Shown piece after piece: positions 22,724 through 60,958 of a stretch of DNA of 64,000 nucleotides; the first letter of the stretch is position 1, and the number at the start of each line of letters is the position of its first letter. Source of the DNA: Polyangiaceae bacterium (GTDB taxonomy: Bacteria; Myxococcota_A; Polyangia; Polyangiales; Polyangiaceae); assembly GCA_013214025.1 (NCBI GenBank), contig JABSRN010000111.1, positions 1 to 64,000 of the forward strand, in the 5' to 3' direction. A program made the position numbers and the translations under genes. The notes beneath the pieces are model-generated. The model was given only the letters and a program-made list of their open reading frames with translations. It made no database searches and was not told the DNA's origin.

Positions 22724-25700
22724 TTACGCCTTTTCGATGCCAGCGATGAGCTTTTCACGAATGTCCTCGGCCAGGATAATGCCGTGGAGCGAACCGACCT
22801 CTTGGGCGCGCTCAACGGTATGAATCGCATCGAATTCGGCGGCGACTTCGGCCTGTTTTTCGAGCAGTACGTCCTGCTTGAGTTTGTCGAGAGTTTCGCG
22901 TTCGGTGGATGTTGGCGGAACGCTGAGGCGTTTCTGTTGAGCGCGCACTCGATCGTCTTGGGCGACCCGGGCTCGGACCTCCCGGGGAAACACGACGGCT
23001 GCCGCGGGACCGCCGCCGATGACCGAAGCGTAGGACCCCTCGACGGCTAGAGCGTGGATACGTCCGTTGAGCTCGCTTGAGAACACGACATAGGCGCCAC
23101 CGTGATAGCGAGACACCACCAAGAAGACGATGGGGCCGTCGAAGTTGACGACGGCTCGCGCAATTTCTGCTCCGTGCTCGAGCTGAAGTTTCCTCATCGA
23201 CTCCGGCGAGCCGTCGAAGCCCGATAGGTTCGCTAGGATCACCACCGGGCGGTTGCCGCTAGCGCTATTGAGCGCGCGGGCGACCTTCTTCGAGGACTGA
23301 GGGAATAACGTACCGCCGTTCCACTCAGCGGGGCCGTCGAGGGGGCGGTATCCCCAGCGCGGGACATTTTGTCCCTCGATACCTATCATACAGACCGGGT
23401 GTCCACCCAGGTGGGCGTCCCAGACAATCGCTGTTTCTCCGGCGACTTGGCTTTGCCAGCGTTCCAATTGACCGCCGTCTTGATCGATCACAGCTGACAT
23501 GATGGAGCGCATGGCGAAGGGTTTCTTTCGCCCCGGGTTGGTCTTCGGATCGAATATTTCGCCTACCGTGTTGAATCCTTCGGCGTTGTAGTTACTGGTG
23601 ATGACCCGACGATCCCGAGGATCGGTGGACTCCAACTTGCGGGGCTGCTTTTCCCCCGGCACCACGTAGGTGAAGGAATAGTGCTGTAAGAGGACTCCAT
23701 AGGCGTCCCGGAAGTCTTCCGCGTAATATTGAGCCTGTCCGTTGGGGCCCATGACGCGTTCGTATCCGCCGATGGCGACTTCGTCTTCGGCGGATACGGA
23801 GCCTGAGGCTGCGAGGGCGGCGCGGCCGGTGAGCACCATGGAGGCTTCCGGGGTCATGATGAGAATGCCGCGGGTGTGCATGAGCATCGTGGAAAGAGCG
23901 TCCCAGTAGCTTTGTGCACCGACGTTCACGCCAGTGACGATGATGTGGATTGCGCCGCCGTCTTGGGTGAAGTTAACGATACGCCTCACCACGCGAGCGG
24001 TCGCGTCGAGATTTTCGGTCCCGCTATCCATAGAGATCTTGGCTCCACTGGAAACGGGGAACCACTCCATTGGCACATTCAAGGATTCGGCGAGATCGAG
24101 GGCCGCTACCACGCGGTCACATTCAGCGCCGGTCAGCGCACCCATACCGCGAGTCGGATCGCTGAGCAGCAGGACCCGTGTCATTCCCTCTGGGATCTTC
24201 GGGGTTGGCGTCGAGATAGTTCCGAATACGACGGAAGCCTTGTTGCCGCCGGGAGCGCGACCTTCCACACTGATAGCGATCGGCTTGTCCGCTTTGGGAT
24301 CCAGGTCGTATTCAACGAAGGTACCGCGAGGAACTCTGGCTCGTTCTTCGGCCGTCTCGGCGGCTCCCATGCCGTCGGGGGATCCGCTCTCTCGAGCGAT
24401 GACGCGAATTAGCTCGTAAGGGTAGAGCAGGCCACGACGTTTGGCGGCGACGACCGCGCGTTCGTAGGCGGAGACTGGGACCAGGGAATCTTTATGTGGG
24501 TCGCGCCACATGATGCTCATGCGATTGCCCGTGAGGTTGCTGATCACAACTTCCACTTCTCTGGCGGGCGCATTGCGAAGGTCGGGGCTGAGCACGCGCA
24601 AGCGCACCGACACTTGTTCTAGACCTAGATAGCGAGTGGTCGGGTGCAGGCGGCGAGACAACATGTCAGCTGTCTTGCCATCGAGTACAATTTCGTGGGC
24701 GAGGAACAAGCTGACTCGGTTCCACTGAAGGCGGCGGCGCGGATCGCGCTTCGCAATGGTTGCGCGCAGCACGCGGCAAGCCTCCGAAAATGTGCGCTCG
24801 AACATCGGCACATAGAGCGCCGCCTGGCAGCCCTCTTCTCGCGGTTTGCCCCGCACGTCGGCGAGCACGAAGATGCGTTCATCCTCCGGTACATCGCGGC
24901 TTTTTCCGGCGAACACGTAAATGCCCGCGTCGTTGTGGAGGCATTCCAGCTCGAAGCTTGCATAGCGGCTGAAATCGACGCGGGTTGCCGCTTCTGGGTG
25001 GAGTCCGTGCAAGGGGAGTAGTTGAAGCTCGCCACTCTCTGCAGACAGCGTTTCGTGGAGTGTCCGGTCTCCTTCCCGGAGAAACGAGATACTCAGTCGC
25101 GTGTTCGGAAGACGTGTCCCCAGCTGTTCCCGTATGGCGCTCAAAAGCGCCGTGGCGTCGGAGTCGCGATCCATGGCGATCAGCAACTCCACGTAAGTGG
25201 TCGAGCCGTTCGTCGCCCCGATTACGGAATCTAAGGATGCCTGGAGAGTGTCGGGAGTGAAGAGGCAGCCTAGAACATAGTCGCCATTGTCGAACGCGAG
25301 CTCTTCGACGGTGAGAGCGCCGTGCACTGAGGTCGTGGAGTGCGTGATATTGCGAGGTGCGTAGAGCCGACGCAGATAGGCGGCCCGTGCGACGTCCTTC
25401 TGGCGCTCGTCACCCTGGTGAAACAGTCCCTGAACTCGTGAAAACCAGCCTTTTGGCGCCAACGCAAGTTCGTCCAGCAGGCTCTCAATCGGCGCGGACG
25501 AACTATTGCTGCCATCCAACAAAAAGGCCTCAACAGCGGCGGTCGTCTCTTCCGCGTATTCTTCCAAAGCCGGACGTTCGAAGATGCCGTAGGTCGCCTC
25601 GAGCGCATAGTCCGCGATGGAGTCCGGGACCTGGCCGCGCAGGCGGGCGAGCCGAGCGAGGGCATCCCGAAGGGTGTCGTCGCCGCTAAAATCTACGCCG

Positions 25701-28306
25701 GCTTCGATCAGTGCGCGAATGCGGCGCAGAACGGCGAGCATGAGATTGAAGCGGAGTTGTGGCTCTAGTTGGGAAGCGAAGAGTCGGAACACCACACGAC
25801 TGAGGCGCTCGGTATATTCGAGGTCGCCGGAGACGTAGCCATAGTGAGCCATGGTGTTTTTTAGGCGGTCCAGGAACTCGTCGGGGATGCCGGCGCCTTC
25901 GGCGTGCATACGCCGAACAAACAACCTCAGGTAGGTGTTGTTTGACGGAGCGAGTTCGCCGGTCTGCAGGGCGAGCTGTGAGCGATCGAAGAGTTCTTGG
26001 AGATCCGCAAAGATCGCCACCTGGGCGGCGATGGACCCGAGGCCTTCGAGAAAATCTTCGGGTAGGTCCGAGGGGAGAGGTGCGTCGAGAAAGTTGATGA
26101 GATCCGCTACGCGCTGATCGTTCGCGTCGAAGCCCAATACAATTCGTTGGATCTCGCCTTTCGCGGCATCGAGTGCGGCTTGGCGAACTTCGGGGGAAGA
26201 CTTGGCTGCGGCGCCCAGATCGGGGTGGCCGAAGTTGCGCGTTTCGCTAGTGGCGAATAGCGCGGCCAGGGCGTCAACCTGAGGCGGCAACTCCAACTTC
26301 TCGGCGGCATCTTTGCCGTCGGCACTGTCAGTGGCGGGTTCAATTACGATCATGACGTCGCCCGCTGCGACTTGTTGACCGCGACGGATGCGTATTTCTG
26401 TGACGGTGCCGCCGACTGGGGCGTCGAAGGCGATCTCCATCTTCATGGCCTCCAACAAGCCGAGGGGCTGTCCAGCCTCGATGGTGTCGCCTTCTTTCAC
26501 CCCAACGGATACGACTAATGACGGTGCGCCAGCGCGTACCTGGCCCGCGGTTTGACGGCCGAAGCTGTGGACTCGACCTTCCACTTCGATACGGATGGTG
26601 GTCTCGCTGCTATCGTACAGGACGCGTAGTTCTTCGCCGCCGATGTGGAGTCGGGCTGCGTGGGGTACCACGGTGCTCAGGCGTGCGCTGACGACGCGTC
26701 CGTCCATATGGATTCGGTATCGATTGGCACCGGAGGCGTAGACATGCGCTCGGTACTGGGTTCCGCCGTAGTTGAGATCTAACTCCTGTCCCACGGATGC
26801 CGGGATCTTGTCCTGGGTGATGTTCCCCGGGTCCGCGTAGAAGTTGACTCGCTGGGTGGCGCGGTCGCTTTGATAGGAGAGAATAGACGCGAGAACAAAT
26901 GCCTCCGGGGCGTAATCTCGTTTGGCGTCTCGCGTTTCGTTCCAACGGTCGAGCCAACGAGTGTCGACGCCGCCACGGCAATAGTCCTCTGCCGTGAGGA
27001 GCTCCAGCAGGTACCCTTTGTTGGTGGCGCCGCCTTCAATGACCAGCTCAAAATCTCGGAGGGCACAGATGAGGCGGGCGCGGGCCTCTTCTCGGGTATC
27101 GCCGGTGGCCATTACCTTGGCGATGACTGAGTCGAAATCTGCGGGCACCACGCTGCCGGAATCGACTCCAGTATCGATGCGCACTCGCGGGCCAAGCGCT
27201 GGAGCGAAGCGGGCGATACGGCCTGGGGCCGGAAGAAACCCCGCATCCGGATCCTCGGCGCAGACCCGAGCTTCTAGGCAGTAACCGGTGCCGTCCGGGG
27301 TGATGGGCGGTAGTTTTTCGCCGCGGGCGATGCGGATCTGTATTTGGACCAGATCCGTGTTGGTGAGCTCTTCGGTGATTCCGTGCTCTACTTGCAGCCG
27401 CGGGTTCATTTCGAGGAAAAAGAAGTCATCGCCTTTGACTAAGAACTCCGCGGTGCCGACACCGTAGTAGCCGACGCTGGATGATAGCTCGACTGCGGCC
27501 TTCTTGATTCGCTCAAGCAAACCATCTGACAGCCCTGTGGGGGGGGCCTCTTCCAGAACCTTCTGGTGTCGGCGTTGTACCGAACAGTCCCGACAACCGA
27601 CAGCGACGACATTCCCGTGGTGGTCCGCGGCTATCTGGACCTCAATGTGTCGTCCGCCAACCACCATGCTCTCCATGAACAAGCGACCATCGCCAAAGGC
27701 CGTGATTGCTTCGGAGGATGCCGATTGAAATGCGGCTTCTAGCTCCGACGCCTGGTTGACAATTCGGATACCACGACCGCCTCCGCCGGCGGAGGCCTTG
27801 ACGACCAGAGGATATCCGATGCGCTCGCCGTGAGGGATGGCGTCCTTCTCGTTCTCCACGACGCCCCGGCTCCACTCTGTGACCGGTACTCCGGCTTTTT
27901 CTGCGAGGTGCTTGCTGGAGATCTTGTCGCCAAGGGCGCGCATGGTCTTTGCGCTCGGTCCTAGGAATCGAATGTCGTGTTTTGTGAGAAGATCAACGAA
28001 CGCGGCGTCTTCGGCGACAAATCCCCAACCGGGCCAGACCGCGTCGGCGCCTACTTCTTTCAACTTCGCCAGTAGCCCTTGGTGGTCTAGGTAGGCGGCT
28101 ACCGGGGTGGTCTTGACAGGCAGCTCGACCGAACGGTCCGCGTGTCGAACGAAGGGCGCGTCCTGGTCGGGCGTCGTGAAGAGGGCGACGACTTCAATCT
28201 GCGTCCCTTCCATGGCGCTGAGGGATTTTACGGCGCGGATACACCGCATCGCTGCCTCTCCCCGGTTGACTATGGCTAAACGACGAATCGGCTTGATTTG
28301 GCTCAA
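22724..28306 (-). CDS. Single-chain multidomain acyl-CoA carboxylase, eukaryotic-ACC-like layout, 1860 aa
   Basis: Domains in order: biotin carboxylase (about 1-450; RRLAIVNRGEAAMRCIRA, the ATP-grasp loop KASAGGGGRGIR, EMNPRLQVEH); biotin carrier domain with EAMKMEIAF, biotinyl Lys near 622; a long helical central region (about 690-1330); and a carboxyltransferase region with both halves (about 1330-1840; for example GVNVGAQSYWDAL, GGHPVCMIGIEGQNVPRWGY and ANLSGFDGSPESM). The order BC-BCCP-central-CT on one chain is that of eukaryotic acetyl-CoA carboxylase; most bacteria use four separate subunits. The central segment NRVSLFLAHEIVLDG, then VISNLTGNRMSIMWRDP aligns by eye with the eukaryotic ACC central domain. 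TTG start with a GAGAAGAGA ribosome binding site. Likely product malonyl-CoA; another acyl-CoA is possible. Confidence 0.9.
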   Translation of the reverse strand: MSQIKPIRRLAIVNRGEAAMRCIRAVKSLSAMEGTQIEVVALFTTPDQDAPFVRHADRSVELPVKTTPVAAYLDHQGLLAKLKEVGADAVWPGWGFVAEDAAFVDLLTKHDIRFLGPSAKTMRALGDKISSKHLAEKAGVPVTEWSRGVVENEKDAIPHGERIGYPLVVKASAGGGGRGIRIVNQASELEAAFQSASSEAITAFGDGRLFMESMVVGGRHIEVQIAADHHGNVVAVGCRDCSVQRRHQKVLEEAPPTGLSDGLLERIKKAAVELSSSVGYYGVGTAEFLVKGDDFFFLEMNPRLQVEHGITEELTNTDLVQIQIRIARGEKLPPITPDGTGYCLEARVCAEDPDAGFLPAPGRIARFAPALGPRVRIDTGVDSGSVVPADFDSVIAKVMATGDTREEARARLICALRDFELVIEGGATNKGYLLELLTAEDYCRGGVDTRWLDRWNETRDAKRDYAPEAFVLASILSYQSDRATQRVNFYADPGNITQDKIPASVGQELDLNYGGTQYRAHVYASGANRYRIHMDGRVVSARLSTVVPHAARLHIGGEELRVLYDSSETTIRIEVEGRVHSFGRQTAGQVRAGAPSLVVSVGVKEGDTIEAGQPLGLLEAMKMEIAFDAPVGGTVTEIRIRRGQQVAAGDVMIVIEPATDSADGKDAAEKLELPPQVDALAALFATSETRNFGHPDLGAAAKSSPEVRQAALDAAKGEIQRIVLGFDANDQRVADLINFLDAPLPSDLPEDFLEGLGSIAAQVAIFADLQELFDRSQLALQTGELAPSNNTYLRLFVRRMHAEGAGIPDEFLDRLKNTMAHYGYVSGDLEYTERLSRVVFRLFASQLEPQLRFNLMLAVLRRIRALIEAGVDFSGDDTLRDALARLARLRGQVPDSIADYALEATYGIFERPALEEYAEETTAAVEAFLLDGSNSSSAPIESLLDELALAPKGWFSRVQGLFHQGDERQKDVARAAYLRRLYAPRNITHSTTSVHGALTVEELAFDNGDYVLGCLFTPDTLQASLDSVIGATNGSTTYVELLIAMDRDSDATALLSAIREQLGTRLPNTRLSISFLREGDRTLHETLSAESGELQLLPLHGLHPEAATRVDFSRYASFELECLHNDAGIYVFAGKSRDVPEDERIFVLADVRGKPREEGCQAALYVPMFERTFSEACRVLRATIAKRDPRRRLQWNRVSLFLAHEIVLDGKTADMLSRRLHPTTRYLGLEQVSVRLRVLSPDLRNAPAREVEVVISNLTGNRMSIMWRDPHKDSLVPVSAYERAVVAAKRRGLLYPYELIRVIARESGSPDGMGAAETAEERARVPRGTFVEYDLDPKADKPIAISVEGRAPGGNKASVVFGTISTPTPKIPEGMTRVLLLSDPTRGMGALTGAECDRVVAALDLAESLNVPMEWFPVSSGAKISMDSGTENLDATARVVRRIVNFTQDGGAIHIIVTGVNVGAQSYWDALSTMLMHTRGILIMTPEASMVLTGRAALAASGSVSAEDEVAIGGYERVMGPNGQAQYYAEDFRDAYGVLLQHYSFTYVVPGEKQPRKLESTDPRDRRVITSNYNAEGFNTVGEIFDPKTNPGRKKPFAMRSIMSAVIDQDGGQLERWQSQVAGETAIVWDAHLGGHPVCMIGIEGQNVPRWGYRPLDGPAEWNGGTLFPQSSKKVARALNSASGNRPVVILANLSGFDGSPESMRKLQLEHGAEIARAVVNFDGPIVFLVVSRYHGGAYVVFSSELNGRIHALAVEGSYASVIGGGPAAAVVFPREVRARVAQDDRVRAQQKRLSVPPTSTERETLDKLKQDVLLEKQAEVAAEFDAIHTVERAQEVGSLHGIILAEDIREKLIAGIEKA

Positions 28307-29550: not shown

Positions 29551-31392
29551 CTACTCCGTGCTCGAGCTGGGGGCGGGAGTTGACGAGAACGTGGGCGCCT
29601 CCCGTCCTTCAGCAGCGGCGAGGGCGGCTTTTAATTCGCCGCCCTTTTTGCGCAAACAGCCCCAGCAGTCCCCCAGACCGATGAATCCGCAACCACTGCG
29701 GCGGGTCAGTTTTTTGAGGGGCCTGACCGAGCGGCTATCCGCCACATTGGTGGCTTCCGGTAGCAGTGCCTTCATCTCTTCGCACTTGCCCTTGACGCGT
29801 AGTTGCAGCGCAATCTTCAGCGCTGGGCTCGACTTCTTTTGGACTTCCGGTGAGTCCAGAAGCTTTCGGGCAAGCTTGGTACTGGTCGTTTTTTTGTGGG
29901 TACCCGCCCAGACATCGAACAGGATATCGGCACCGGCGGACTCCAGCTTGTCCGCGATCAGTTCCAGCGCGGAAGGGAGGGCTTTGCCGCTGGCCGCTGC
30001 GTTTCTGAGATCCCGTTGGGTCTCCGGATCTTCCTTCAAGTTCTTGCGTTCGTCCAGGGCGCGGTCGTAGGCGATCACCGCCTGGGAGTAGTCGCCGACC
30101 TCCGTGTAACCACGGCCTAGGGCGAGCCACACACTCGAGGAGCGTTCTTTGGGTTTGACAGCTGCCAACTTTGCCAGAGCCCTGGTTTCGCCCTGGGCGG
30201 CAGGTTCGAGCCACTCTTCGGTCGGATCGCCATCCTCGGCGACCAACGCTGCCGGGTCGTCGGGTTCTCCGTCTCCAAAGATGAACACACCAAAAAAACT
30301 GACCAGGGCTGCCAGAGCTACGCCAGCCGCTATTTTGACCGTCGGGACATCGCGCGGCATCCGACGGGAATCCAGAGTCGGAGAAACCAAGTTGGTCTCC
30401 GTCTGTGCGGTCGCAATATTGTCCGACGGTGGCTTGGGCGTGGATGGGACCTGAATGTCCACGACGCTATGACTCCTTGACCGCGGACCGCTCTGTACGG
30501 GATCGTAGTCGCCTTCTACGACGGGATAGCTCTCCAAAATGTCCGCTAGCCGATGGCTGACAGCGTTTGCATCAACGGGACGCTTGTCGGGCTTTTTCTC
30601 CAAGAGTTCGAAGACCAGGTCTCGAATTCTCGAATCAATGGTCTCCGGCAGCGGCGGGGGTGCCTCGGTCAGTTGTTTGGTGAGGATGATCAAAATCTCG
30701 TCGGCTTCGAAGGGCGGCGCGCCGGTAAGCATCTCGTAAAACATGATCCCGAAAGCGTAGAGATCGACGCGGTGATCGATGTTCTTGCCCGAAGCCTGCT
30801 CGGGAGCGATGTACGTCGGAGTCCCGATGACGGTGCCCAGCTGGGTGAGTTGGGTATTGTCTGCGGCCCCACCGGTGAGTTTAGCGATGCCGAAGTCGAG
30901 CACCTTGACGAAGTTATTCTGCCCGCGGTGCTCGATGAGCATCACGTTTTCCGGCTTGAGATCGCGATGCACGATGTCTGCTTCGTGGGAGGCACTGAGG
31001 GCTTCGGCGATCTGAAGGGCGACGCGTAGAGCTTGACCGTGCGGCATGGGGCCGCGTGAGATGGTCTTGGTCAGCGTCTCGCCGGCGACAAATTCGAGTA
31101 CGAGATAGAATGAACCATCCGGCAACTTGCCGAAATCCATGGCGTTAACGACATGGGGGTGTTTGATGGTGGCGGAAGCTACCGCTTCTCGTTCGAAGCG
31201 CTTAACGGCCTCCTCAAGGGCCGTCATTTCCCGGTGGAGAACCTTGATAGCGACCGGTTTGCGCAGATGGATATGCTCGCCGCGGAAGACCTGTCCCATG
31301 CCGCCTTCGCCGAGCAAGGCGTCCACGCGGTAGCGATCGGCTATCGTCGTGCCGACAAGGCTTGGGGTATCGCTGGTCTCTTCTTCCGACAT
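29551..31392 (-). CDS. Membrane-anchored eukaryote-like Ser/Thr protein kinase, 613 aa
   Basis: A PknB-type kinase domain spans about residues 18-290: Gly-rich loop [13 protein letters not shown], catalytic Lys in [25 protein letters not shown], activation segment [10 protein letters not shown] and [13 protein letters not shown]. All catalytic residues are present. After a Ser/Pro linker comes one transmembrane segment ([20 protein letters not shown], about 360-380). The 230-residue extracytoplasmic part is helical and contains a TPR-like unit ([20 protein letters not shown] followed by DRALDE), with Cys residues near the C-terminus. The ATG at 31390-31392 is chosen; the open frame upstream to 31506 lacks kinase features. 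No target is evident from neighbours. Confidence 0.92.
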
Positions 31393-31611
31393 GGCGGGGC
31401 TGCAGCCTAACAGTGCTCGTCGGGGGCGGGGGAAGGTCGCGACGAGGGGCGTGCATACCGGAAAACGCGCAAGATCGGGTCGAAATTGGTGGTGGCATGC
31501 CGCCACACTGAAAGTGTCTAGCCCGACTCAACCGGCTGTCCGGAATAATGCAGCAAGCTAGGACGCGGTCGAGTCGATTTTGTCCGGGAGAGCGGGGGGC
31601 TCGCGGTGTGC

Positions 31612-39391: not shown

Positions 39392-42300
39392 ATGGCCCAA
39401 AAAGACAAGTCCGCCTCCCTCGATGCCCAGCGGGCATTTGCTCTTGAATTGGAGCAAATGCTGAGCGAAGAACCGGCGCCGGATCCCGGCGACGCTGACG
39501 CGATTCACGTACAGCTTGTATCGATGTACGCCGACAATTTGCGCGAGCCCGCGACCTCGGTGCCGCATATCGAAGTGTTGCTGGGTCGTGACGAGGTGGC
39601 CGCGGAGAGTTTCGTGGCCGCCGACCAATTGCTCGGGCATCGATCGGTAGCCCCACAGGTGGCCGAGATGGTTTCCGAGGCGTACCGACGGACGGGGGAG
39701 GTCGCGAGTGAAGCGGGCGCCCTAGCTCGGGAATTGCGTCTCGCCAAGTCGCCGCGGGTGGAGCACATCAGGCGTCGTTTGGCGCAGCTTCGTGCTGGTG
39801 AGCTGGGTGATCCGGAGGGCGCAATTGAGTTGATCGAGGCGATGCTGAGCAAGCACCCCGGCGATGACGAAGCGCGGAAGCTATACATCGAGACATCTAT
39901 CGCTTTGGAGCGCCAAGCCCTGGCGATCAAGATGCTGACCCGGGCTACCCGTGCCTGTAAGGATTTGGAAGGTCGTGCGCGCGCGGGATTCGATCTGGGG
40001 ACGTTGTGCCTCGAGGAAGGGGAGACCGGACCTGCCCGTAAGGCTTGGGTCGATGTCGTGAAGACCGACGTCAAGTGTCCGGCAACTCTTCGTGCAGCGC
40101 AAAGACTGATCGCGATCGACAGCGACGAAGACACGGGGATCCTCCGGCCAGCTCTTGCCGTGGTGGCCAGTCTCGCTCCGGAAGCGGGGGCCCGGCTGGA
40201 GGCCGGAACAAAGCTCATCACCCTGTACAAGGACGACGACGTGGGCGCGGCTGTGGGCTGGCGCACGTTGATCGATTCCCCTCGCGGAGAAGAGGCGCTC
40301 GACAAGTTGCACGCTCTGTACACCAGTAGTGGCGACGCGCAGGGCCTGGGCGACGTGTTGCAGGAACGAGCAGTTCGCTCGAAAGGCCCCGCGGAGGCTC
40401 GGGAGTTGGCAATTCAAAGCGCCAAGGCCCGCGCCAACGACAGCCAGAACCCGGAGGCCGCGATCGCAGGGTGGACATGGGTGGTGGAGCAATATGGGCC
40501 TTCTACGGAGGTCCACCGTCAATTGATGCCATTGCTCGAAAAAGCAGCGCGATGGGAAGAACTCGCTAAGGTTCTGGAGGCTGTCATCACCAGCGTCGAG
40601 TCACACGAGCAGGCATCCCTGTTGGCCAAGCTGGGGCGCACTCGATATTTGCATCTGGACGATTCGGTGGGCGCCTTAGCGGTACTGGAGAAGGCCCTCA
40701 TTCTGGATGAGGGCCACGCCGTGGCCCGAAGTGTCGTGGAAAAAATCATGGCTGTGGCCGAACATCGCAGCGCTGCGGCGAGTGTGCTTGAGCCTGTATA
40801 CCGAGCGTCAAACAACGGCGCGGGCTTGGCTCGTGTGCTAGAGATCCGTGCGGATGCCGCGGTGGATCCCAGCGGTCGGTTGCAAGCGTTGGCTGCTGGA
40901 TTGGCGGTGGCCGATAGCAATGAGGATGCGGTTGCGGCGCTGGATATCGTGCGCCGCGCATTGACGGAGAGCTGCGAGCACAGCCTCGGCGATTTGACAG
41001 CGTGGGTCGACCATCACCTGCGTTGGGTCGGTCTCGTCGACGAACCCAAGGCTCATGCCACGACACTGACGGAGGTTCTCGGTGACCGTGACGTGGATTC
41101 CGAGCCGCTGGTATCTCTGGCTAGCGCGGCGGCGGCGGCCCTCATCGAGGACGACAACTATGACGATGCTCAGGCGATTTGCGCTCGCATGATCGTTAGT
41201 AACCCGTCATCCGTTGAAATTCACGGCCGAGTGGATGCTCTTTTGGGCGACAGTGAAGCCGTGGAAACACGCCTGGGGCGGTACAAGTCGGGGCTACAAG
41301 CTACGGAAGATCTTAAAGTCCGCCGCCCGCTTCGGGCGATCATCGCCGATATTTATGTCGAGTCCCTCGATGATTTGTCCGGCGCCTTGGCGACGTGGCA
41401 TGCTGCGCTGTCGGATGACCCGCAAGACTTCGCGTCACAAAAAGCTGTCGCTCGAGTCTATGAACATCGCCGGGAATGGCCGCAGTTGATTGAGCATCTA
41501 GACGCCGCCATCGACGTCTTGGGCGCCGAACAGCGTCAGGACATGCTGTTTCGTAAGGGGCAGGCCTTAGCCAAGCATGACCAACGGGACACGGCGCTGG
41601 AGGTGCTAGCTAGTTTGTTGGACGAGCCGAACCTGCCGGATGCCATCATCGAAAAGCTGGCGCTCCTGGCTAACGAGGAAGACGAGGGCGGCTTGTATGA
41701 GCGGGCGCTCAAACGTCAGAGCTCGTCGACTGACGAGGGCATGCGTGTTCGAGCGCTCGAACGACTCGGCGATTTTCAGTACGAGCAGTTGGGTGACGTG
41801 CAAGCGGCCCGCACGAGTTGGATGCCCGCTGCTGATCACTACGCCGGTGACGCCAACAAAGAGGAGCACGGGCGCCAGCTCTACGAGCGAGTGTTGGAGG
41901 CGACTCCGGATGACCGGGAGGCCGCTACAAGGCTTATTGAGCTCTACGCTGCCTCCGAAGATTGGGTGAAGATCCCCGGTGTGTACGGCGTGCTACTGCG
42001 CACGGGCCCCACCGAGGAGGCAACCGCCAATCTCCTGTTGGGGCTGGAAGAGCGAGCCCTCGGAGCGTGGGCCGTGGACGAGTACGTGTCCATGTTGGAC
42101 GAAGCGGTGTGGCACCAGACCGCTTCGTCTCCGATGGGGCGTCGCCTGATGGAAGCGAAAGCGCGCGCTTTGACCTCGGATCCTGGTCGTCAGATGGAAG
42201 CGTCGCAGACATTCCGGGCATTGATCGAGACTCATGCCGGCGACGAGGACATCGAGCATTACGTTAGTTTTTACGAGTCGAAATCCGATGTGGCCGAGCG

Positions 42301-45300
42301 CCATGAAGATCGCCGTTGGCTCTTTGACTGGCGAGCGCGCACTTGCGACGATGCGGGCCCAGTTTTTACGGCCTGGGCAGTGGTGGAGGAGAAAGCTGGG
42401 GATTTGCATGCGGCCATTGGTGTGTATGAGCGCATGGTCCGTTTACAGCCCGAATCCACCGAGGCTTGGGAGGCGTTGATCCGACTCCGTGAAGAGGTCG
42501 GGGACGTCGAGGGCAGCCTGGAGTCCTTGATAGCGCTTCGGGAACTCTGCGAGGGCGATGTTCGTGTCGCGGTCGATATCCGTGTCGCCGAGCTTCTGTT
42601 GTCCTTGGGGCGTTGTTTGGAGTCAGTGGAAGCCATCGCCCACCTGATTTCTGCACATCCGGTAGTGCCGGCGGCCCAAGAGATCGCTCACAGGGCCTTG
42701 GCGGATGCAGACGCGGGCGAGCGTGCGGCCGATCTAGTGGAGCAAGCGGCTGCGGGGGCGTCGGAGCCGGAGGTTAAGTCGACCTTACTGTCTATGTTGC
42801 TGGAGGGACGGCCTCTCGATGACGATCCAAGTACTGAATTCGTCGAACGTCGTGCGGCATGGTTCGAGCAGCTGACTCGATTGCGACTTGTTGGGGATGC
42901 TGATGGCGCGATGGCGCTGATTTCTCGGGGTATGTTGGAGATGCCCGGGGCGACGGATCTTTGGCGTGCAGCCGAAGATTTCGCGCGGGAAGTGGAGAGG
43001 CCGGATCCGGTCATTGACGCCTACCGCAGGGTATTGCTGGAACAGGTAGATGACGCGGAAACTGCGGAAGCTATCGGTCAGCGCATGGTGGACTTTCATG
43101 GCGAGTGGTTCGTCGACGCTTCGCTGTTGGTTGACGCCCTGGGTCGAGTATTGGAACTGCAACCGAGCGCCCGATGGGCCTTTGATAGGGTCAAGTTGGA
43201 GCTGAGTGCCAGCGGTGAGTGGGACGAGTTCTTCCGCATCTTCGACCGCGCCATCGAAATGACTCAGGACGCTGCTCTGGAGGCGGAGCTGTTGGATGAA
43301 GCGAGCGTCGCTGCCAAAGATCTAGCGGGGCTTCCGGATCGTGCGATTGGCTACTTGGAACGTATCCATCAGATACGACCTGAGGACGCACCCGTCGTCG
43401 CGGCGCTCAAGCGATTGTACGAGCAGCGCGGCCGCCCCCGGGCGCTTATTGAGTTGCTTAGCGAGGGGCTTGACCGAAGCGAAGGCCTCGCCCTGAGTGA
43501 ACTGAGAAGGCGCATTGCGACGCTCTGGTTGGAGTTAGGAGACGTTCCCCGTGCAGGCTCAATAGTCGGGCGAATGTTGGCGGACTCAGACTCTCCTGCT
43601 GATACCGCCGATTTGTATGAGCAGATGCTCGGTGTGGCCCGACCGGATTCGGTGGACGCGGACACTGCGGAGGCCGATCGTGTCGCTCGAAGCGCTGCCA
43701 TTGACCAGTTAACCGCTCACTACACGGAGTCGGGTCAACCGAACCAGGTCATCCGCATGGCAAAAAAACAGCTTGAGTTGATGAAACATCCCAAGCGCCA
43801 AGCGAAAATAATTCGGCGCATTGTGCAGCTGCGTTTGGAGCTCGCAAAAGGCGCGCCGGACAAGTTTGCCCATGTCGTCGCCGTGGTGTCCGGGGACGCC
43901 GGCGGCGTGCCCGAGTTGGAGCGTGTCGCCGCAGAGGCGGTCTTGAAATTGGCAATGGCGGAATGGAAGTCTTCCAAACAGTCCGTCACCGACGATGCCG
44001 TCGCGGCCGCCTGGCTGGAAATTCAGGTTCTTGCGGGCCTGCATCGTAGCGCGGGTGAGCCTGAGTCTTGTGCCAAACTGCTCGAGCGCAGCGCCGGTTT
44101 GCCCTTTCCACGAGAGCGGCAGCGAGAGCTGTTGAGCGAGGCGGCGCGGACGTTCTGGGAGGGGGCGGAGAACGCCGAGTTGGCGCTGCCCATACTCCGC
44201 AATCTGTTTGAAGAGGACTCCGGCGATTCGATCGCGCAGAGCTTGGTGAGCCTATTTGATAAGTTACTAGAGGACTCCGGCAGCGGTCGGGAGCGCGCCG
44301 CATTGTGGGAAGGCCAGGCGCGCTGGCACAACAACGGAGGCGAACCCCATTTGGCTCGCGAGTTGTGGGCGCGGGCAGCTCAGCTGTGGGAGGCAGAGAA
44401 CGAAACGGATCACGGCATTGAGGCTCACCGGCAGGGCGCGGCTCTGGGATCTGACGCAGCGCTGGAGGCTCTGGCCACCCGATATGTCACTGCTGAGCAG
44501 TGGACGGCAGCCTGCGAGGTTCTGGAATGGATCGTCAGTTTGGCGTCCCAAGAGTCGAAGGGAAAGAACTCGCTGAGGTTGGCCGATGCCTATATTCGGG
44601 CGGGTTCCGAAGATCAGGCGCGGGCTCGCCTGGCCGTGGTTCGCGAAGCGGACGCGGACATTGAGGAAGTTCAAGAGACCTTGGCGCAGCTGTACCGAAA
44701 GGCCACATTGTGGCCTGAACTAGCCGCGATACTCTCCCAGCAGGGATACCGTGCCCGTCTTCCGGAACGTCAGTTGATGCTTCTGCGCGAGTCGGCTGAC
44801 GTCTATCTCTATCGCTGCGAGAATCCGCACGCGGCATTGCCGCTCTTACGTGCGTCCTTGGAAATCTCCCCGGATACCTTCGCTCTCCGGCTGTTGTTCG
44901 GCTCTACCTTGGATGCCACAGGTCAGCGAGACGAAGCCATCACGGTGCTGCAATCGCAGGTCGAGTCCTATGGTCATCGTTACCCCAAGGAACGAGGGGT
45001 GGTTCATCGCGAGCTAGCTTCGGTCCTGCTCGCTGCCGAACGCGGTTCTGACGCCTTGGAGCAGCTGGTTCTGGCCGCCAAGATCGATCCAACAGGTGTG
45101 GAGATCCTCTACGATCTGGGTCGTTTAGCCCTCGAACAAGACCAGCTGGAACAAGCCGAGAAGACTTATCGGGCATTGCTGCTGGCTTTGCATCACGGGG
45201 TGGACGGGAGCGTCGCAGCACCCACGCGCGCGGAAGTGTATCTGGATCTAGCGGAGATTTCGAAGCGCCAGGGGGATGCGGCGCTTGCCAAAGAGCGGGT

Positions 45301-47701
45301 TGAGTCGGCCTTCGACTCCTCCCTGGAGAGTGTGGAACAGATACGGAGTTTCGAGGAGGCGCTCCGTCAACGAGAATTGCCCGTGCTCTTGGCGCGCGCC
45401 ATCGAGCGTCGTCTGAAATCCACGGTAATCCTATCACGAGCCGCTGAAGTACTCGAAGAATTGAGCTCCGTGTACGCCGAGTTGCTGCCAGAAGACAAAG
45501 GGCTACGTGCGGTAATCGAAGCGGGTGCGAAAACCCTATCGGCCGATCTGGATTCGGAGGAGCGGGATGTCGCGACCACGCGAAGTCTGGCTTCGGTCTA
45601 TCGCAGCCTGGGGGAATTGTCCCAAGCAGCGGTCATGTACGAACGGGTGTTCGATGCGGATCCCACGCAGCTCTCTGTGTTGCAGGCGCTTCTTGGAGTG
45701 TATCAAACGCTCGGGCAGAACAAAAAGCTGGTGAAAATGGTGGAGGCCACGGTCCCGCTTTTGGAATCGGCTGAAGAACGACAGAACTTGCGCTTGGGCT
45801 TGGCTGAAACCCTATTCGGGGACGAATCCCAAGACCCAGACACGGCCACCTTGCTGCGCGGCGTTCTGGAAGAGCAACCTGAAAACGCTGTGGCCAATTC
45901 TTTGTTGGTCCGGCTGCTGGAACGTCAAGGGAAGGATGAAGAGCTGATCGAAGTGTTGCAGTCTCAGCTCGCCCGAGCCAGCGCCGACAAAGCGGAGTTC
46001 CTGACGACCGGCGAACGATTGGGCCGCGCGTGGGAGCGGAAAGAGCAGCCCGAGGAGGCGGCGCCTCTCTACGAGGAGATGCTTTTGCGTACGCCTGGAG
46101 AGATCGACGCACTCCGGGTGCTGGCCTCGCGACTCGAAACGGTGGGCTCCGACCAGCTCGTCGTGTGCCTCGAAAGAATGATTCCGCTGGAGTCAGGTTC
46201 CCAGGCTCGAGATGTGGGGCAGCGAGTGCTCGCTCTCAAGGACAAGGCAGGGGATGCCCAAGGTGCTCGACAAACCCTCGAAGCCCTGCACGTGAACGAT
46301 CCGGCAAACGTTGGTTTCCGGAAACGCTTGGTTTCCGAGTTTGAGGAAGCCGCAGACTACCGCGGGGTCGCGCGAGTGCTCAGCCGAGCGCTTGAAGCGA
46401 CTCCCAAGAGTCAGCCGCTACTGCTTCAGTTGGTTCAGGCGTCACAGAAGGGCGGCGACAACAACGCGGCACTCGACATCCTGAGCCTGGCACTGGAGAA
46501 CGCGCCCACCAATGCGTCGTTACTGAGAGCACGAGCGGAGGTCTTGGAGGCTCTCGACCGAGTGCCCGACGCTGTGCGGGATCTCACTGCCGCGCATTCG
46601 GGCGGCGCAAAATGTGCGAACGAACTCGTGCGCCTATTAGAAATTGTCGTCACACGATCTTCGGGACCGGAAGTCGATGCCTCGACCCTGCAGCTGGTGG
46701 AGTTACTGCTGGCTTCGGAGCGAGCAGATGACGGTCGTCAGCATCTCGCGACTCTGATGAGCCGAACGCCCCTTCACCCGGGTGGACTGCAGAAAATCGC
46801 CGAAATCGCGATGGCCTCCGCTGACTGGGTAGGCGCGATGGCCGCTTACAAGAAGCTGTTGCCATTGGTAGAGGGAGACATCGTTGCCATAACTTTGGCA
46901 TACGCCGCTTGCTGCAACAACGCGGGGAACCCAGCGGAGGCGCTGGATTCACTCGCCGCAGCTGTCGAGTTGGAGCCAGAGAACAAGGAACTTCGAGAGC
47001 AACTGGAAACGCTGTACGAAGAAGCCGGTCGATTCCGAGAATTGGCAGATTTACTCTATCTTCAGATTGCCGAAGAGAAGGACAACGCAGCTCAGGTGGC
47101 TTTGTTCGTTCGAGCGACACGTATCCTGCTCAAGGATCCCACTCAGCTCCAAAAGGCGACCGACACGGTGTCGGCGGCGCGGGCCGCCACGCCCGGCAAG
47201 CTCGACATGGAACTGCTGTGGGTTGAGATCCTCACCAGCGCGTCCCGTTATAGCGATGCCCTGGCGGCTCTCGAAGCGCTAGCCGAGGGCCAGCGGGGAA
47301 AGCGGTCCAAGTCGATGGCGACGATTCATCTGGCCATGGCCAATACTCATTTCGCCGTCGACGACATCTTCGAGGCCTTCGATGCGCTGAAGAAGGCATT
47401 CAACATCGATCCGCTCAGCGCGGAGATCGCTTTGCAGTTGGGGCTCACAGCTCTCGATCTTGATGAAGTGCGCACAGCGGATCGGGCGCTGCGAGCGGTG
47501 ACGACCATGAAAGCTCGACCGAAGAATGGTACGGGGGGGGGAGCCACCACTCAAGCGCGGGCCACCGCCTACTATCACTTGGGTCGCGCGGCTCGCGATA
47601 AAGGCGACCGCCAACGGGCACGCATGATGTTGACCAAGTGCGTTCAAGAAGATCCCCAACGGAGTGAGGCTCAGGCACTGTTGGAACAGCTGACGGCCTA
47701 A
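39392..47701 (+). CDS. Giant tetratricopeptide-repeat protein, 2769 aa
   Basis: Almost the whole protein is made of TPR-like helix-turn-helix units, visible as recurring patterns such as ATSVPHIEVLLGRDEVAAES, GDLHAAIGVYERMVRLQPES, SLYRKA-type turns and GELSQAAVMYERVFDADPTQ. Many are longer than 34 residues and degenerate in the first two thirds; the clearest canonical repeats are in the last third (NPAEALDSLAAAVELEPENK, then FEAFDALKKAFNIDPLSAEI). No signal peptide, membrane segment or enzyme domain was seen. It should form a long superhelical scaffold. The start ATG is at 39392 with a weak ribosome binding site. The stop is three bases from the convergent menE stop. Partner(s) unknown; the upstream Ala/Pro-rich protein is the best guess. 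Confidence 0.88.
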   Translation: MAQKDKSASLDAQRAFALELEQMLSEEPAPDPGDADAIHVQLVSMYADNLREPATSVPHIEVLLGRDEVAAESFVAADQLLGHRSVAPQVAEMVSEAYRRTGEVASEAGALARELRLAKSPRVEHIRRRLAQLRAGELGDPEGAIELIEAMLSKHPGDDEARKLYIETSIALERQALAIKMLTRATRACKDLEGRARAGFDLGTLCLEEGETGPARKAWVDVVKTDVKCPATLRAAQRLIAIDSDEDTGILRPALAVVASLAPEAGARLEAGTKLITLYKDDDVGAAVGWRTLIDSPRGEEALDKLHALYTSSGDAQGLGDVLQERAVRSKGPAEARELAIQSAKARANDSQNPEAAIAGWTWVVEQYGPSTEVHRQLMPLLEKAARWEELAKVLEAVITSVESHEQASLLAKLGRTRYLHLDDSVGALAVLEKALILDEGHAVARSVVEKIMAVAEHRSAAASVLEPVYRASNNGAGLARVLEIRADAAVDPSGRLQALAAGLAVADSNEDAVAALDIVRRALTESCEHSLGDLTAWVDHHLRWVGLVDEPKAHATTLTEVLGDRDVDSEPLVSLASAAAAALIEDDNYDDAQAICARMIVSNPSSVEIHGRVDALLGDSEAVETRLGRYKSGLQATEDLKVRRPLRAIIADIYVESLDDLSGALATWHAALSDDPQDFASQKAVARVYEHRREWPQLIEHLDAAIDVLGAEQRQDMLFRKGQALAKHDQRDTALEVLASLLDEPNLPDAIIEKLALLANEEDEGGLYERALKRQSSSTDEGMRVRALERLGDFQYEQLGDVQAARTSWMPAADHYAGDANKEEHGRQLYERVLEATPDDREAATRLIELYAASEDWVKIPGVYGVLLRTGPTEEATANLLLGLEERALGAWAVDEYVSMLDEAVWHQTASSPMGRRLMEAKARALTSDPGRQMEASQTFRALIETHAGDEDIEHYVSFYESKSDVAERHEDRRWLFDWRARTCDDAGPVFTAWAVVEEKAGDLHAAIGVYERMVRLQPESTEAWEALIRLREEVGDVEGSLESLIALRELCEGDVRVAVDIRVAELLLSLGRCLESVEAIAHLISAHPVVPAAQEIAHRALADADAGERAADLVEQAAAGASEPEVKSTLLSMLLEGRPLDDDPSTEFVERRAAWFEQLTRLRLVGDADGAMALISRGMLEMPGATDLWRAAEDFAREVERPDPVIDAYRRVLLEQVDDAETAEAIGQRMVDFHGEWFVDASLLVDALGRVLELQPSARWAFDRVKLELSASGEWDEFFRIFDRAIEMTQDAALEAELLDEASVAAKDLAGLPDRAIGYLERIHQIRPEDAPVVAALKRLYEQRGRPRALIELLSEGLDRSEGLALSELRRRIATLWLELGDVPRAGSIVGRMLADSDSPADTADLYEQMLGVARPDSVDADTAEADRVARSAAIDQLTAHYTESGQPNQVIRMAKKQLELMKHPKRQAKIIRRIVQLRLELAKGAPDKFAHVVAVVSGDAGGVPELERVAAEAVLKLAMAEWKSSKQSVTDDAVAAAWLEIQVLAGLHRSAGEPESCAKLLERSAGLPFPRERQRELLSEAARTFWEGAENAELALPILRNLFEEDSGDSIAQSLVSLFDKLLEDSGSGRERAALWEGQARWHNNGGEPHLARELWARAAQLWEAENETDHGIEAHRQGAALGSDAALEALATRYVTAEQWTAACEVLEWIVSLASQESKGKNSLRLADAYIRAGSEDQARARLAVVREADADIEEVQETLAQLYRKATLWPELAAILSQQGYRARLPERQLMLLRESADVYLYRCENPHAALPLLRASLEISPDTFALRLLFGSTLDATGQRDEAITVLQSQVESYGHRYPKERGVVHRELASVLLAAERGSDALEQLVLAAKIDPTGVEILYDLGRLALEQDQLEQAEKTYRALLLALHHGVDGSVAAPTRAEVYLDLAEISKRQGDAALAKERVESAFDSSLESVEQIRSFEEALRQRELPVLLARAIERRLKSTVILSRAAEVLEELSSVYAELLPEDKGLRAVIEAGAKTLSADLDSEERDVATTRSLASVYRSLGELSQAAVMYERVFDADPTQLSVLQALLGVYQTLGQNKKLVKMVEATVPLLESAEERQNLRLGLAETLFGDESQDPDTATLLRGVLEEQPENAVANSLLVRLLERQGKDEELIEVLQSQLARASADKAEFLTTGERLGRAWERKEQPEEAAPLYEEMLLRTPGEIDALRVLASRLETVGSDQLVVCLERMIPLESGSQARDVGQRVLALKDKAGDAQGARQTLEALHVNDPANVGFRKRLVSEFEEAADYRGVARVLSRALEATPKSQPLLLQLVQASQKGGDNNAALDILSLALENAPTNASLLRARAEVLEALDRVPDAVRDLTAAHSGGAKCANELVRLLEIVVTRSSGPEVDASTLQLVELLLASERADDGRQHLATLMSRTPLHPGGLQKIAEIAMASADWVGAMAAYKKLLPLVEGDIVAITLAYAACCNNAGNPAEALDSLAAAVELEPENKELREQLETLYEEAGRFRELADLLYLQIAEEKDNAAQVALFVRATRILLKDPTQLQKATDTVSAARAATPGKLDMELLWVEILTSASRYSDALAALEALAEGQRGKRSKSMATIHLAMANTHFAVDDIFEAFDALKKAFNIDPLSAEIALQLGLTALDLDEVRTADRALRAVTTMKARPKNGTGGGATTQARATAYYHLGRAARDKGDRQRARMMLTKCVQEDPQRSEAQALLEQLTA

Positions 47702-47704
47702 TTC

Positions 47705-49147
47705 TCAACCCAGAGGGTGCAGCCGAGACAGGCTCAATTCATGGGCCTGAGCACGGCTGATCTTGCCGATCGCCGTGCGGGGTAGTTCGTCCAGAAGGGC
47801 GTAGCGTCTGGGGCGTCGGAATTTGGCCAAGCGCTGGGCGCAAAACTCGACGAACGCTTTCAGGTCGAGATCTTTCGCCACCAGCGCGACCGCGACCACC
47901 TCTCCCCATTTCTCGTCCTCTACGCCGAACACGACCGCCTCTTGGATGCCGGGAAATTCGCTGAGGATCGTTTCCACTTCCAGAGGATGCACGTTTTCGC
48001 CGCCGCTGATGATCAAGTCGGAGCTTCGTCCCAAGACCTGGAGGCGTTCATCTGAGCTCAAGGCACCGAGGTCCGACGTGCGAAACCATTCGTTGGTGAT
48101 GGGCGGTTTGTCGGGTGCCGGCGAGGCGGAGTTGCCGTCTGGGGCTTCCGGTCGGTTTCCGCCGGCCGTATAGTAGCCGCTGAATAGGGTGTCGGAACAG
48201 ACTTCAATCACACCGTCGCGTATGCGTAGCTCGGTGCCGGGGATGGCGCGGGGAGGGCGGTCGGCTTCATCCGCCAACATTTGGGTCGCCACCTGGGAGC
48301 AGGTTTCCGTCATGCCGTAGGTGGCGAGGGCCGGAATCCCCAGCTGGCGGGCATCGGTCAAGCGCTCGGGGGCGCAGGGGGCTCCGCCGACCAACACCCG
48401 TTTGAGCGTCGGTACGGGGTCGCGCTCCTCGGTCAGCCATTGGCTGAGTTGACTGGGGACCACGGAAAGGTGCGTGATGCTGGCACTGCGGACCAGTTGA
48501 GGAATGGTCTCTTGGGAGTGGGTACGAATCACCGTGGTGGCGCCCGCAAGCAGGCAGCGCACCCATACCATCAGTCCGGCCACATGGGCGAGAGGCAGGT
48601 TGAGCAACCATCGATCGCCGCGGCCTAATGGCACCGCGCGCAGGCTAGCTTCGGCCGAGGCCTCTAGAGCTCGGTGGCTGAGCATGACTACCTTTTGTAC
48701 GTCGCTCGACCCAGAGGTGAACATGAGCGCGGCGATGTCCTCTTTCTCGGGAGCCCGTTGAGTTTCGTGGGTGGGATTGTAGTCCCGAATTCCCATGGGG
48801 CAACCCGAGCACCACTGGTACTGCACCGGCACCAGACTGAGAGCGCGCTGGCGTTCCTCGTCGTTCCAGGCGGGATGAGCGAGAACCGGGGGCACGCCGA
48901 TTTCGAACAGAGCCAGAGTGCATAGCAGCGTATTCAAGTCGGCCCGGGCAGTGAGCGCTACTGGCTCCGGACAGGCGACGCCGCCCATCAAGGGGCGGTT
49001 CTGGGTTACGTGGTGGGCCTGCAGGGTCTTGACCATCGCCAGTGTCAGATTCTTGAGCTCAAGAAAACTGAAACACGCGCCGTCTAAATCCAACGCAATG
49101 GCCGGACCATATTTATCGGCTAGCCGCGCCGCGTTGAGAGCCGTCAA
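47705..49147 (-). CDS. menE: o-Succinylbenzoate--CoA ligase (MenE-like), 480 aa
   Basis: An adenylate-forming enzyme that activates o-succinylbenzoate to its CoA ester, the fifth step of menaquinone synthesis. Motifs: A3 FTSGSSDVQKVV (the usual Gly/Thr-rich TSGTTGxPKGV is altered), A5 ATYGMTETCSQ, A7 WFRTSDLG and A8 GRSSDLIISGGENVHP, with catalytic Lys in RTAIGKISR. A TTG start overlaps the menC stop by four bases (TTGA), so the assignment rests on domain plus context. Other acyl-CoA ligases share these motifs. Confidence 0.87.
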   Translation of the reverse strand: MTALNAARLADKYGPAIALDLDGACFSFLELKNLTLAMVKTLQAHHVTQNRPLMGGVACPEPVALTARADLNTLLCTLALFEIGVPPVLAHPAWNDEERQRALSLVPVQYQWCSGCPMGIRDYNPTHETQRAPEKEDIAALMFTSGSSDVQKVVMLSHRALEASAEASLRAVPLGRGDRWLLNLPLAHVAGLMVWVRCLLAGATTVIRTHSQETIPQLVRSASITHLSVVPSQLSQWLTEERDPVPTLKRVLVGGAPCAPERLTDARQLGIPALATYGMTETCSQVATQMLADEADRPPRAIPGTELRIRDGVIEVCSDTLFSGYYTAGGNRPEAPDGNSASPAPDKPPITNEWFRTSDLGALSSDERLQVLGRSSDLIISGGENVHPLEVETILSEFPGIQEAVVFGVEDEKWGEVVAVALVAKDLDLKAFVEFCAQRLAKFRRPRRYALLDELPRTAIGKISRAQAHELSLSRLHPLG

Positions 49148-50226
49148 GGTAGGTTCTCAACAGGCCAAGCGGCAGTTGAATGTTGCCAGACGGTGCCGGC
49201 GCTCGGAGAGAGCCGCAATGGTAGCCACGTCTCCAGAGCGTCGTGGTGGTCTAGTCCGGCCGGTACACCTTGCGTCTGCAGCGCGCAGGCGAGCTCGCAA
49301 CAAGCGGCCATATCCACGGGGCCGCCCAGACAGTGGGAGACGATGGGTTCTGCGCGTATGGCGCGAGCGGCCCGGGCGTAGGCGACACTTGCGGTGATAC
49401 CCCCCAACACCATGGGTTTGATCACCAGCGCGGCAGGAATGGTGCCGGTGGGTGTATTGGCTAACTCTGTGGCTGTTTGATCTCTCAAGCTTTCATCCCA
49501 TGCAGTTGGCAACTCAACACGTACGTTCGGCACACCAAACGGCTCCTCCAAGAAATCGATACCGAGATCTTTCCACGCGGAGGCGTTGTCGTCGAATGCG
49601 TCCGGTGCCAAGCTGCGGTTGGCGTCCAGCCGTAGAGAGATACCGATGCCGAATTCTGCGCGGAGTTGACTCAATGTACTGAGCAGTGGGTCTAGATTAT
49701 CTGGACCGCACTTGAACTTAAGACTTTGATAACCGGACGCAAGAGCCTGACGTGCGCTGTGCAGCCAATCTTTCTCGTTCTGACCGGTGACCCAACGTGT
49801 GAGTGGCACCTCCGCTTGGGGAGAGGGATTCAGCAGATCGGCTGGGCTCAGACCTTGGCGTTGGGCGAGCCAACTCCACATGGCGACTTGCACTGCGCAC
49901 CGGGCTGCGGGTAATTCTACCGGTATGTTCTCCGAGGCCTTTTCCAATTGGCCGAGGGTCCACTCAACGTTGTTAACAGTGTCAACAGTCGATTCTGGCT
50001 CCGGAACACGCTCTATCCAGTGTTCTAGGGCGCGCACACAGTCCTCTAGGCTGTCGCTGGAGTAGCCCGGCAGGGGACTGGCCTCGCCGTATGCCCGGCG
50101 ACCTTGGTCGCCCTCAATTCGTAGCAGAACCCCGCGACGCTCTGTCCAAGTGGAATTCGCGTTGCCGATGGGTGCTGTGATGTCCGAACCGTAGCGGTAG
50201 AGCTTCGCAGTGAGCCGTCGGGTCAT
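49144..50226 (-). CDS. menC: o-Succinylbenzoate synthase (MenC), 360 aa
   Basis: An enolase-superfamily enzyme dehydrating SHCHC to o-succinylbenzoate. The muconate-lactonizing-like barrel is evident from SLKFKCG (the KxK catalytic Lys), metal ligands in RLDANRSL, DFLEEPF and a later Asp, and the second catalytic Lys in LVIKPMVLGG. The C-terminal SHCLGGPVDMAACCELAC follows family pattern. The ATG at 50224-50226 gives the expected start MTRRLTAKLYRYG; an in-frame TTG three codons upstream is possible. Its stop overlaps menE. About 6 kb of surface-protein genes separate this pair from the other men genes. Confidence 0.9.
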   Translation of the reverse strand: MTRRLTAKLYRYGSDITAPIGNANSTWTERRGVLLRIEGDQGRRAYGEASPLPGYSSDSLEDCVRALEHWIERVPEPESTVDTVNNVEWTLGQLEKASENIPVELPAARCAVQVAMWSWLAQRQGLSPADLLNPSPQAEVPLTRWVTGQNEKDWLHSARQALASGYQSLKFKCGPDNLDPLLSTLSQLRAEFGIGISLRLDANRSLAPDAFDDNASAWKDLGIDFLEEPFGVPNVRVELPTAWDESLRDQTATELANTPTGTIPAALVIKPMVLGGITASVAYARAARAIRAEPIVSHCLGGPVDMAACCELACALQTQGVPAGLDHHDALETWLPLRLSPSAGTVWQHSTAAWPVENLP

Positions 50227-50284
50227 CGGGCGCAATCTAACGTGTGGACGCCGCTCCCAAGCATAAAAATGCTATCCGGGGCTC

Positions 50285-51061: not shown

Positions 51062-51361
51062 AGGGGGCGATCTCCAAGCAAAAAGTAAGGCCGCGAGCGG
51101 CTCCGCTGATTGGGACGACGTCACGAAGTTTCAACACTATCGCGACGCTTCCGTGCGCCGCTAGCCTTAAGGCGGCGATTCGGGGTCTGCCGCCCCATAA
51201 GTCGCCGCTGGATCCCTCCCCAATAGGAGCATATCTCACTGAATCCATGAGAAGTGCCCCGCCGGCAGAAAGTCTAGCTTAGCGGTATTTTGCGCGATAA
51301 TCCGGAAACTGGGCGCGGCACCGTGCACCGATTGACGCACGGTGATTCGCTGGTTGCGAAG
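51062..51361. other. Intergenic region with one inverted repeat
   Basis: No gene in 300 bases. CACCGTGC (51319-51326) and GCACGGTG (51337-51344) form an 8-bp stem with a 10-base loop just after the stop of the OmpA-family gene (minus strand). No T-run follows in the minus direction, so it is a weak terminator candidate or an mRNA 3'-end stabiliser. Confidence 0.5.
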
Positions 51362-54086: not shown

Positions 54087-54289
54087 AAGTTACCCAAAAA
54101 CGGCGGTGCCGTCACTATATGAGTGGGTGCTATCGGCTAGAATTATCACCCGTTAGTCGTCTGTTGCTCGTCTGTTGGATTCGACGCGTTTTCAGTGCAA
54201 GCCGACGGACCGGTTGGGCGTTTCCGATCGCCATGAGCCAAGAAGGTTCTGCTCGCAGTGCTTTCGATTCCGGTCGGGGACCGCGAAAC

Positions 54290-56032: not shown

Positions 56033-56110
56033 TGGGCTCAGGCTAAACGTCCCGGCCGAGTGTTGTCAACGAGGCGGGCACGAAGCCGCTTTGTGAGCGT
56101 TATGGAGGCT

Positions 56111-60955: not shown

Positions 60956-60958
60956 GGC

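Follow-up and report, generated by a model that had tools for sequence, protein, structure and literature searches.

A probable eukaryotic-type, single-chain acetyl-CoA carboxylase carried widely by Myxococcota

Gene and domain organization

The 64,000-nucleotide stretch analyzed here (hereafter the window; contig JABSRN010000111.1 of the Polyangiaceae bacterium assembly GCA_013214025.1) carries on its minus strand one long, uninterrupted ORF that combines all the parts of an acetyl-CoA carboxylase (ACC). Fatty-acid synthesis has its committed step at ACC, whose usual bacterial form consists of the separate subunits AccA, AccB, AccC and AccD. The features of the window gene are the following:

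22724..28306, minus strand: complete gene for the probable single-chain acetyl-CoA carboxylase (1860 aa, TTG start, stop codon at 22724-22726)
26948..28288, minus strand: biotin carboxylase (BC) domain, residues 7-453 (Pfam Biotin_carb_N, CPSase_L_D2 and Biotin_carb_C; BC tree)
26528..26947, minus strand: linker between BC and carrier, at the position of the BT domain, residues 454-593 (assigned by position; ACCA_BT match weak, E 0.23)
26342..26527, minus strand: biotin carboxyl carrier (BCCP) domain, residues 594-655 (Pfam Biotin_lipoyl, 4.7e-15)
26441..26443, minus strand: codon for K622, the lysine predicted to be biotinylated, in EAMKME (from sequence; invariant in 21 sequences)
24332..26275, minus strand: central domain, residues about 678-1325 (profile search against the PDB, ACC_central in relatives, predicted fold)
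22727..24331, minus strand: carboxyltransferase (CT), both halves (N and C) on a single chain, residues about 1326-1860 (Pfam Carboxyl_trans 4e-34, CT profile, trees)

As the original prediction had proposed, a single reading frame thus holds BC, carrier, a long central region and both CT halves in the order known from eukaryotic ACC: Pfam recovers the biotin carboxylase, the biotinyl domain (594-655) and the carboxyltransferase (1374-1854), each far above cut-off, in a protein of the ~200 kDa size class where ~650 residues separate carrier and CT. NCBIfam equivalogs (AccC, pyruvate carboxylase and others) mostly matched the BC part, and far under their cut-offs. The BC domain keeps its ATP-grasp and catalytic motifs (KASAGGGGRG, RRHQK, LEMNPRLQVEH), and the carrier motif is also intact, the biotinyl stretch EAMKMEI including a biotinylation site of the (A/V)MKM form (EAMKME at residues 619-624). 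An AGAAGAG-like ribosome-binding stretch directly precedes the TTG start, and promoter and terminator scans at the gene returned nothing above chance. Since full-length relatives with the same domain order occur in many genomes, the window gene is neither an accidental fusion nor a product of faulty assembly.

A search for conserved neighbours of the ACC gene in relatives found none except scattered protein kinases, so that genomic context offers no operon argument. In the window, a Ser/Thr protein kinase with a TPR match lies nearby (29551-31506, minus strand), a link that is not conserved in relatives; as the fused ACC SACE_4237 of Saccharopolyspora erythraea is reported to be phosphorylated, regulation of the enzyme by such kinases is conceivable. 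Farther along are a 2769-aa ORF resembling a long TPR-type repeat protein (39392-47701, plus strand) and, at 47705-61792 on the minus strand, two groups of menaquinone-biosynthesis-like ORFs with unrelated ORFs between them (MenE- and MenC-like; MenA-, MenH-, MenD-, MenF- and MenG/UbiE-like, all named by eye from translations).

Homology of the central region with the central domain of eukaryotic ACC

In the window protein itself, Pfam ACC_central matched weakly and below cut-off (E 0.011 over the full chain, 0.0006 when the central piece was searched by itself), and this match was dropped as a sole proof. The same model matched 18 of 21 Myxococcota sequences (best 6e-21), and in a whole-genome search six relatives exceeded its curated cut-off, with 0 matches in 14 control genomes. 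A profile of the central region from 21 Myxococcota proteins (A1), searched against all PDB sequences, retrieved eukaryotic ACCs exclusively (11 of 11 matches; Chaetomium 5e-15, yeast 1e-14, human 8e-8), the Chaetomium match covering two collinear stretches. An AlphaFold model of the region, built from a 46-sequence alignment (mean pLDDT 88, pTM 0.86), had yeast, human and Chaetomium ACC as its top Foldseek matches (31 chains, best 6e-22), and VIA-align superposed it on yeast ACC with a Z score of 29.9 over 514 residues vs. 6.9 for the best unrelated chain. Together, the profile, the ACC_central matches in relatives and the fold establish that the central region and the central domain of eukaryotic ACC are homologous, which bears out the homology originally proposed for residues 690-1330. 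That this part is a plain linker is ruled out by the PDB profile matches and the predicted fold.

Shorter central regions occur within the family. Fused ACCs of families f29 (loci L223-L225) and f44 (L229 and L233) have central regions of ~400-470 residues vs. ~620, and those of f44 have lost a ~170-residue block from the middle while both flanks still match. The Myxococcota family thereby supplies small, natural central-domain variants for structural work on ACC, and allows a natural test of which parts of the central domain are required.

Relationships of the carboxyltransferase and biotin carboxylase domains

Searched against the PDB, a CT profile returned eukaryotic ACCs as its top 20 distinct sequences (8e-28 to 5e-18), followed by acyl-, geranyl- and propionyl-CoA carboxylases from 5e-12 onward. 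CT trees, for which the eukaryotic sequences were taken from PDB alignments, separated the bacterial fused enzymes plus eukaryotic ACC from PCC/MCC-type CTs with 100/100 support. Both analyses thus place the CT with eukaryotic ACC and not with the ordinary propionyl- or geranyl-CoA carboxylases, the placement on which the original prediction had been staked.

The BC tree (yeast sequence from PDB entry 1w93) likewise joined fused bacterial and eukaryotic BC domains in one group (100/97), apart from AccC, AccA3, MCC-alpha, pyruvate carboxylase and the host's own lone BC. Motifs VWxGWG, LGDKIS and PWSG (the last in most members) are common to the fused and eukaryotic BC domains and absent from the other BCs compared. 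The branches leading to eukaryotes are long in BC and CT trees; lying at the opposite end of the chain from CT and having shorter branches, the BC domain is independent evidence. The simplest reading is a single fusion ancestral to the bacterial fused enzymes and eukaryotic ACC. In terms of known classes, the window enzyme differs from two-subunit PCC, MCC and GCC enzymes in being one chain whose CT groups with eukaryotic ACC, and from AccABCD in being single-chain in a genome where accA and accD are absent.

Distribution and evolutionary history

Scanning 84,980 species genomes yielded at least 583 fused-ACC loci, the best 80 of which came from Myxococcota, Actinomycetota, Acidobacteriota and a few bins labelled otherwise. 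Three such bins, labelled Proteobacteria, Spirochaeta and Xanthomonadales (L079, L086 and L125), carry myxococcotal- or acidobacterial-type fused ACCs, and are probably mislabelled or mixed. Within Myxococcota, 140 of 379 genomes (about 37%) matched the central profile at 1e-10 or better, our threshold for a fused-positive genome, and the fused enzyme was found in 37 of the 184 genomes of the host's order; in Actinomycetota, the CT profile matched 21 of 296 genomes. Two genomes (G066 and G055; loci L157 and L158) have two fused-ACC copies each, one of them ~30% identical to the window protein over the central region. This paralogue was considered as a split enzyme and rejected as such, the genes running off contig ends. 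A literature search, covering the journals incompletely, found no paper describing a myxococcotal eukaryote-type ACC.

To place the eukaryotic enzymes, we used a concatenated BC+CT tree (52 rows, 1008 columns, LG+C20+F+G4), in which the outgroup and human rows were joined from different proteins; eukaryotes in our trees number three to four, animals and fungi only, and Myxococcota are sampled more densely than other phyla. Eukaryotes and bacterial fused enzymes grouped together (100/100), and the bacterial fused enzymes formed one clade (100/99) with the sampled eukaryotic ACCs outside it. Inside this bacterial clade, the window's clade A was fully supported (100/100), as was a clade in which every actinobacterial and acidobacterial enzyme sampled sits together with some from Myxococcota (100/100). 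All remaining deep lineages are Myxococcota, and the actinobacterial enzymes are nested among myxococcotal ones. What is new is thus that Myxococcota carry this ACC type widely and hold nearly all of its deep bacterial branches.

Constraining eukaryotes to group with the actinobacterial/acidobacterial enzymes was rejected (p-AU 0.001), as was grouping them with clade A (p-AU 0.002); both tests used groups defined once an initial tree was available, and both involve long branches. The bearing on the origin of eukaryotic ACC that was originally suggested holds with one limit: the trees do join the two, but eukaryotic ACC does not arise from the window's Myxococcota clade. While the bacterial source of the eukaryotic single-chain ACC had not been placed in earlier work (Lombard and Moreira, 2011; PMC3199775), an actinobacterial origin was later proposed in a study that found bacterial members only in actinobacteria (Livieri et al., 2019; PMC6491548). 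The tree and the AU rejections argue against this proposal: a specifically actinobacterial source fits poorly, and the results speak rather for a Myxococcota-centred history of the bacterial fused family.

Beyond this, the trees fix neither a gift from Myxococcota to eukaryotes nor the direction of transfer. One scenario, which we offer tentatively and as a minority possibility, is that the fused ACC was born in bacteria, in or near Myxococcota, that the eukaryotic ancestor would have acquired its cytosolic ACC from a stem lineage of this bacterial group, and that the actinobacterial enzymes reflect a later transfer. The reverse, a eukaryotic ACC gene transferred once into bacteria and then spread, mostly in Myxococcota, would be compatible with an ACC function and would give the observed picture of all bacterial fused enzymes in one clade beside eukaryotes, as expected from a single early transfer. 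We consider it unlikely, as the bacterial diversity is very deep (CT domains 46-75% identical, several old Myxococcota lineages) and the bacteria are not nested within eukaryotes, although only three to four animal and fungal sequences represent the latter.

Loss of AccA and AccD and the probable role of the enzyme

Both accA and accD are absent from the host's own genome assembly (a draft in 184 contigs, 97% complete), which answers the question, raised with the original prediction, of whether the four-subunit genes exist elsewhere in this genome. Across the order, every one of the 12 genomes carrying the window's subtype (the host and 11 relatives) is missing both genes, as against only four of the 147 that have no fused ACC (Fisher 1e-13). 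No uniform picture emerges for the other fused subtypes in the order: of 25 genomes, five lack both genes and 16 have both. Among named-collection genomes with the window's subtype, 14 of 17 lack accA, the remaining three having a sub-cut-off match (L085, L091) or a full match (L098). At the phylum level, accA is absent in 130 of 140 fused-positive genomes and present in 143 of the 239 others (odds ratio 0.05, p 8e-27); the genomes being related, these Fisher p-values overstate independence, yet the accA pattern extends over about 29 families. At the thresholds applied, accA and a fused ACC were both missing from roughly one in four Myxococcota genomes (96/379), whose ACC is likely a divergent fused form or a two-subunit enzyme.

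This coupling of accA/accD absence to the fused enzyme indicates that the fused enzyme stands in for the four-subunit ACC, and the window enzyme is most likely the fatty-acid ACC of its host. The domain architecture, the three-part homology to eukaryotic ACC, and the absence of accA and accD with its coupling across the phylum are computed observations; very probably, then, the window encodes a eukaryotic-type single-chain ACC that took over the malonyl-CoA supply for fatty-acid synthesis, with loss of AccA and AccD. Several points count against an ACC role: the assembly is a draft, some relatives keep accA/accD alongside the fused enzyme, and the CT C-half has an invariant SGFDGS in place of the eukaryotic RGFSGG, the loop LSGFDGS having a serine at the position of the arginine in WRGFSGG.

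The host has further carboxylase genes, i.e., a pyruvate carboxylase (contig C102), a BC-BCCP/CT pair (C108), CT subunits (C35 and C129) and a lone BC (C150), which from their sequences look like ordinary PC and PCC/MCC-type enzymes. Two-subunit enzymes carboxylate acetyl-CoA in some actinomycetes, and the C108 pair, the C35 and C129 CTs and the C150 BC could likewise carboxylate acetyl-CoA and supply malonyl-CoA. The lone BC (456 aa; L164:6244-7611, on contig C150 of G000) adjoins a GlmM-like gene with no evident CT nearby, and forms a long branch in the BC tree. With such genes at hand, the window enzyme might instead be a single-chain carboxylase for other acyl-CoAs (propionyl-CoA, long-chain acyl-CoAs or polyketide extenders), malonyl-CoA coming from a two-subunit carboxylase; this would agree with the coexistence of fused enzyme and accA in some Myxococcota, and with SACE_4237 carboxylating acetyl-CoA and propionyl-CoA equally (PMC6491548). 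The strong mutual exclusion of fused enzyme and accA, and a CT that groups with eukaryotic ACC rather than with PCC, GCC or MCC, make this reading improbable.

If the window enzyme is indeed an ACC, established domain chemistry would have the BC domain use ATP and bicarbonate to carboxylate the biotin on Lys622, the carrier swing carboxybiotin from the BC to the CT domain, and the CT transfer the carboxyl group to acetyl-CoA (and perhaps propionyl-CoA) to yield malonyl-CoA. The catalytically silent central domain would act as a scaffold spacing BC and CT within a homodimer, a function suggested by analogy with yeast and human ACC. As malonyl-CoA supply passed to the fused enzyme, AccA and AccD would have been lost. 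Substrate, dimeric state and essentiality are here extrapolated from SACE_4237, a homodimeric and essential multidomain ACC (Livieri et al., 2019; PMC6491548).

Comparison with known carboxylases

SACE_4237 is also the closest known system, with the same BC-BCCP-central-CT layout, a size of about 200 kDa and a central region homologous to that of eukaryotic ACC; a fused ACC from the same genus (S. hirsuta, L111) aligns with the window protein over its full length (41%). Hence, the eukaryote-style enzyme in a bacterium that was originally announced is real but not unprecedented, an actinobacterial example having been available since 2019 (PMC6491548). The window enzyme differs in belonging to a monophyletic Myxococcota clade outside the actinobacterial-acidobacterial one, and in replacing AccA/AccD in a phylum where many other members use the four-subunit enzyme; this kind of fused bacterial ACC was thus already known, and the window enzyme represents a new clade of it.

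Eukaryotic cytosolic ACC (yeast Acc1, human ACC1/ACC2) shares with the window protein the domain order and the central-domain fold, the BC motifs WxGWG and LGDKIS (PWSG is shared by most relatives, the window protein having EWSR), and in the CT an N-terminal RxPGxN and features of the C-terminal helix. The window protein is shorter (1860 aa vs. about 2200-2400), lacks the eukaryotic BC inserts and N-terminal extension, and keeps the bacterial VRIDTG in the C-part of BC where eukaryotes have VWGYFS. The BC domain of eukaryotic ACC is inhibited by soraphen A, a compound that Sorangium produces. AccABCD catalyzes the same reaction with homologous BC and BCCP, but as four separate subunits. The CT-first type of carboxylase also has BC, BCCP and CT in one chain, but in reversed order, without a central region and as a hexamer (PMC6491548). 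Single-chain acyl-CoA carboxylases have indeed arisen separately at least once (the long-chain type of Pseudomonas and mycobacteria; PMC6491548), yet an independent fusion of bacterial BC-BCCP and CT around a mere linker is hardly tenable here, given a central domain with eukaryotic fold and sequence signal and BC and CT domains that, from opposite chain ends, each independently group with eukaryotic ACC.

Syntrophic models of how eukaryotes arose count Myxococcota among the proposed bacterial partners, and the phylum has also been put forward as a source of sterol synthesis (PMC12872458, PMC12004948), so that the fused ACC family offers a specific gene against which to test such models. If the tentative scenario of a fused ACC born in or near Myxococcota were true, a core step of eukaryotic lipid synthesis would be of myxococcotal-type origin. 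For the phylum itself, this ACC type is widespread and at its deepest in Myxococcota, where it is accompanied by loss of AccA, and it bears on the origin of the animal and fungal enzymes.
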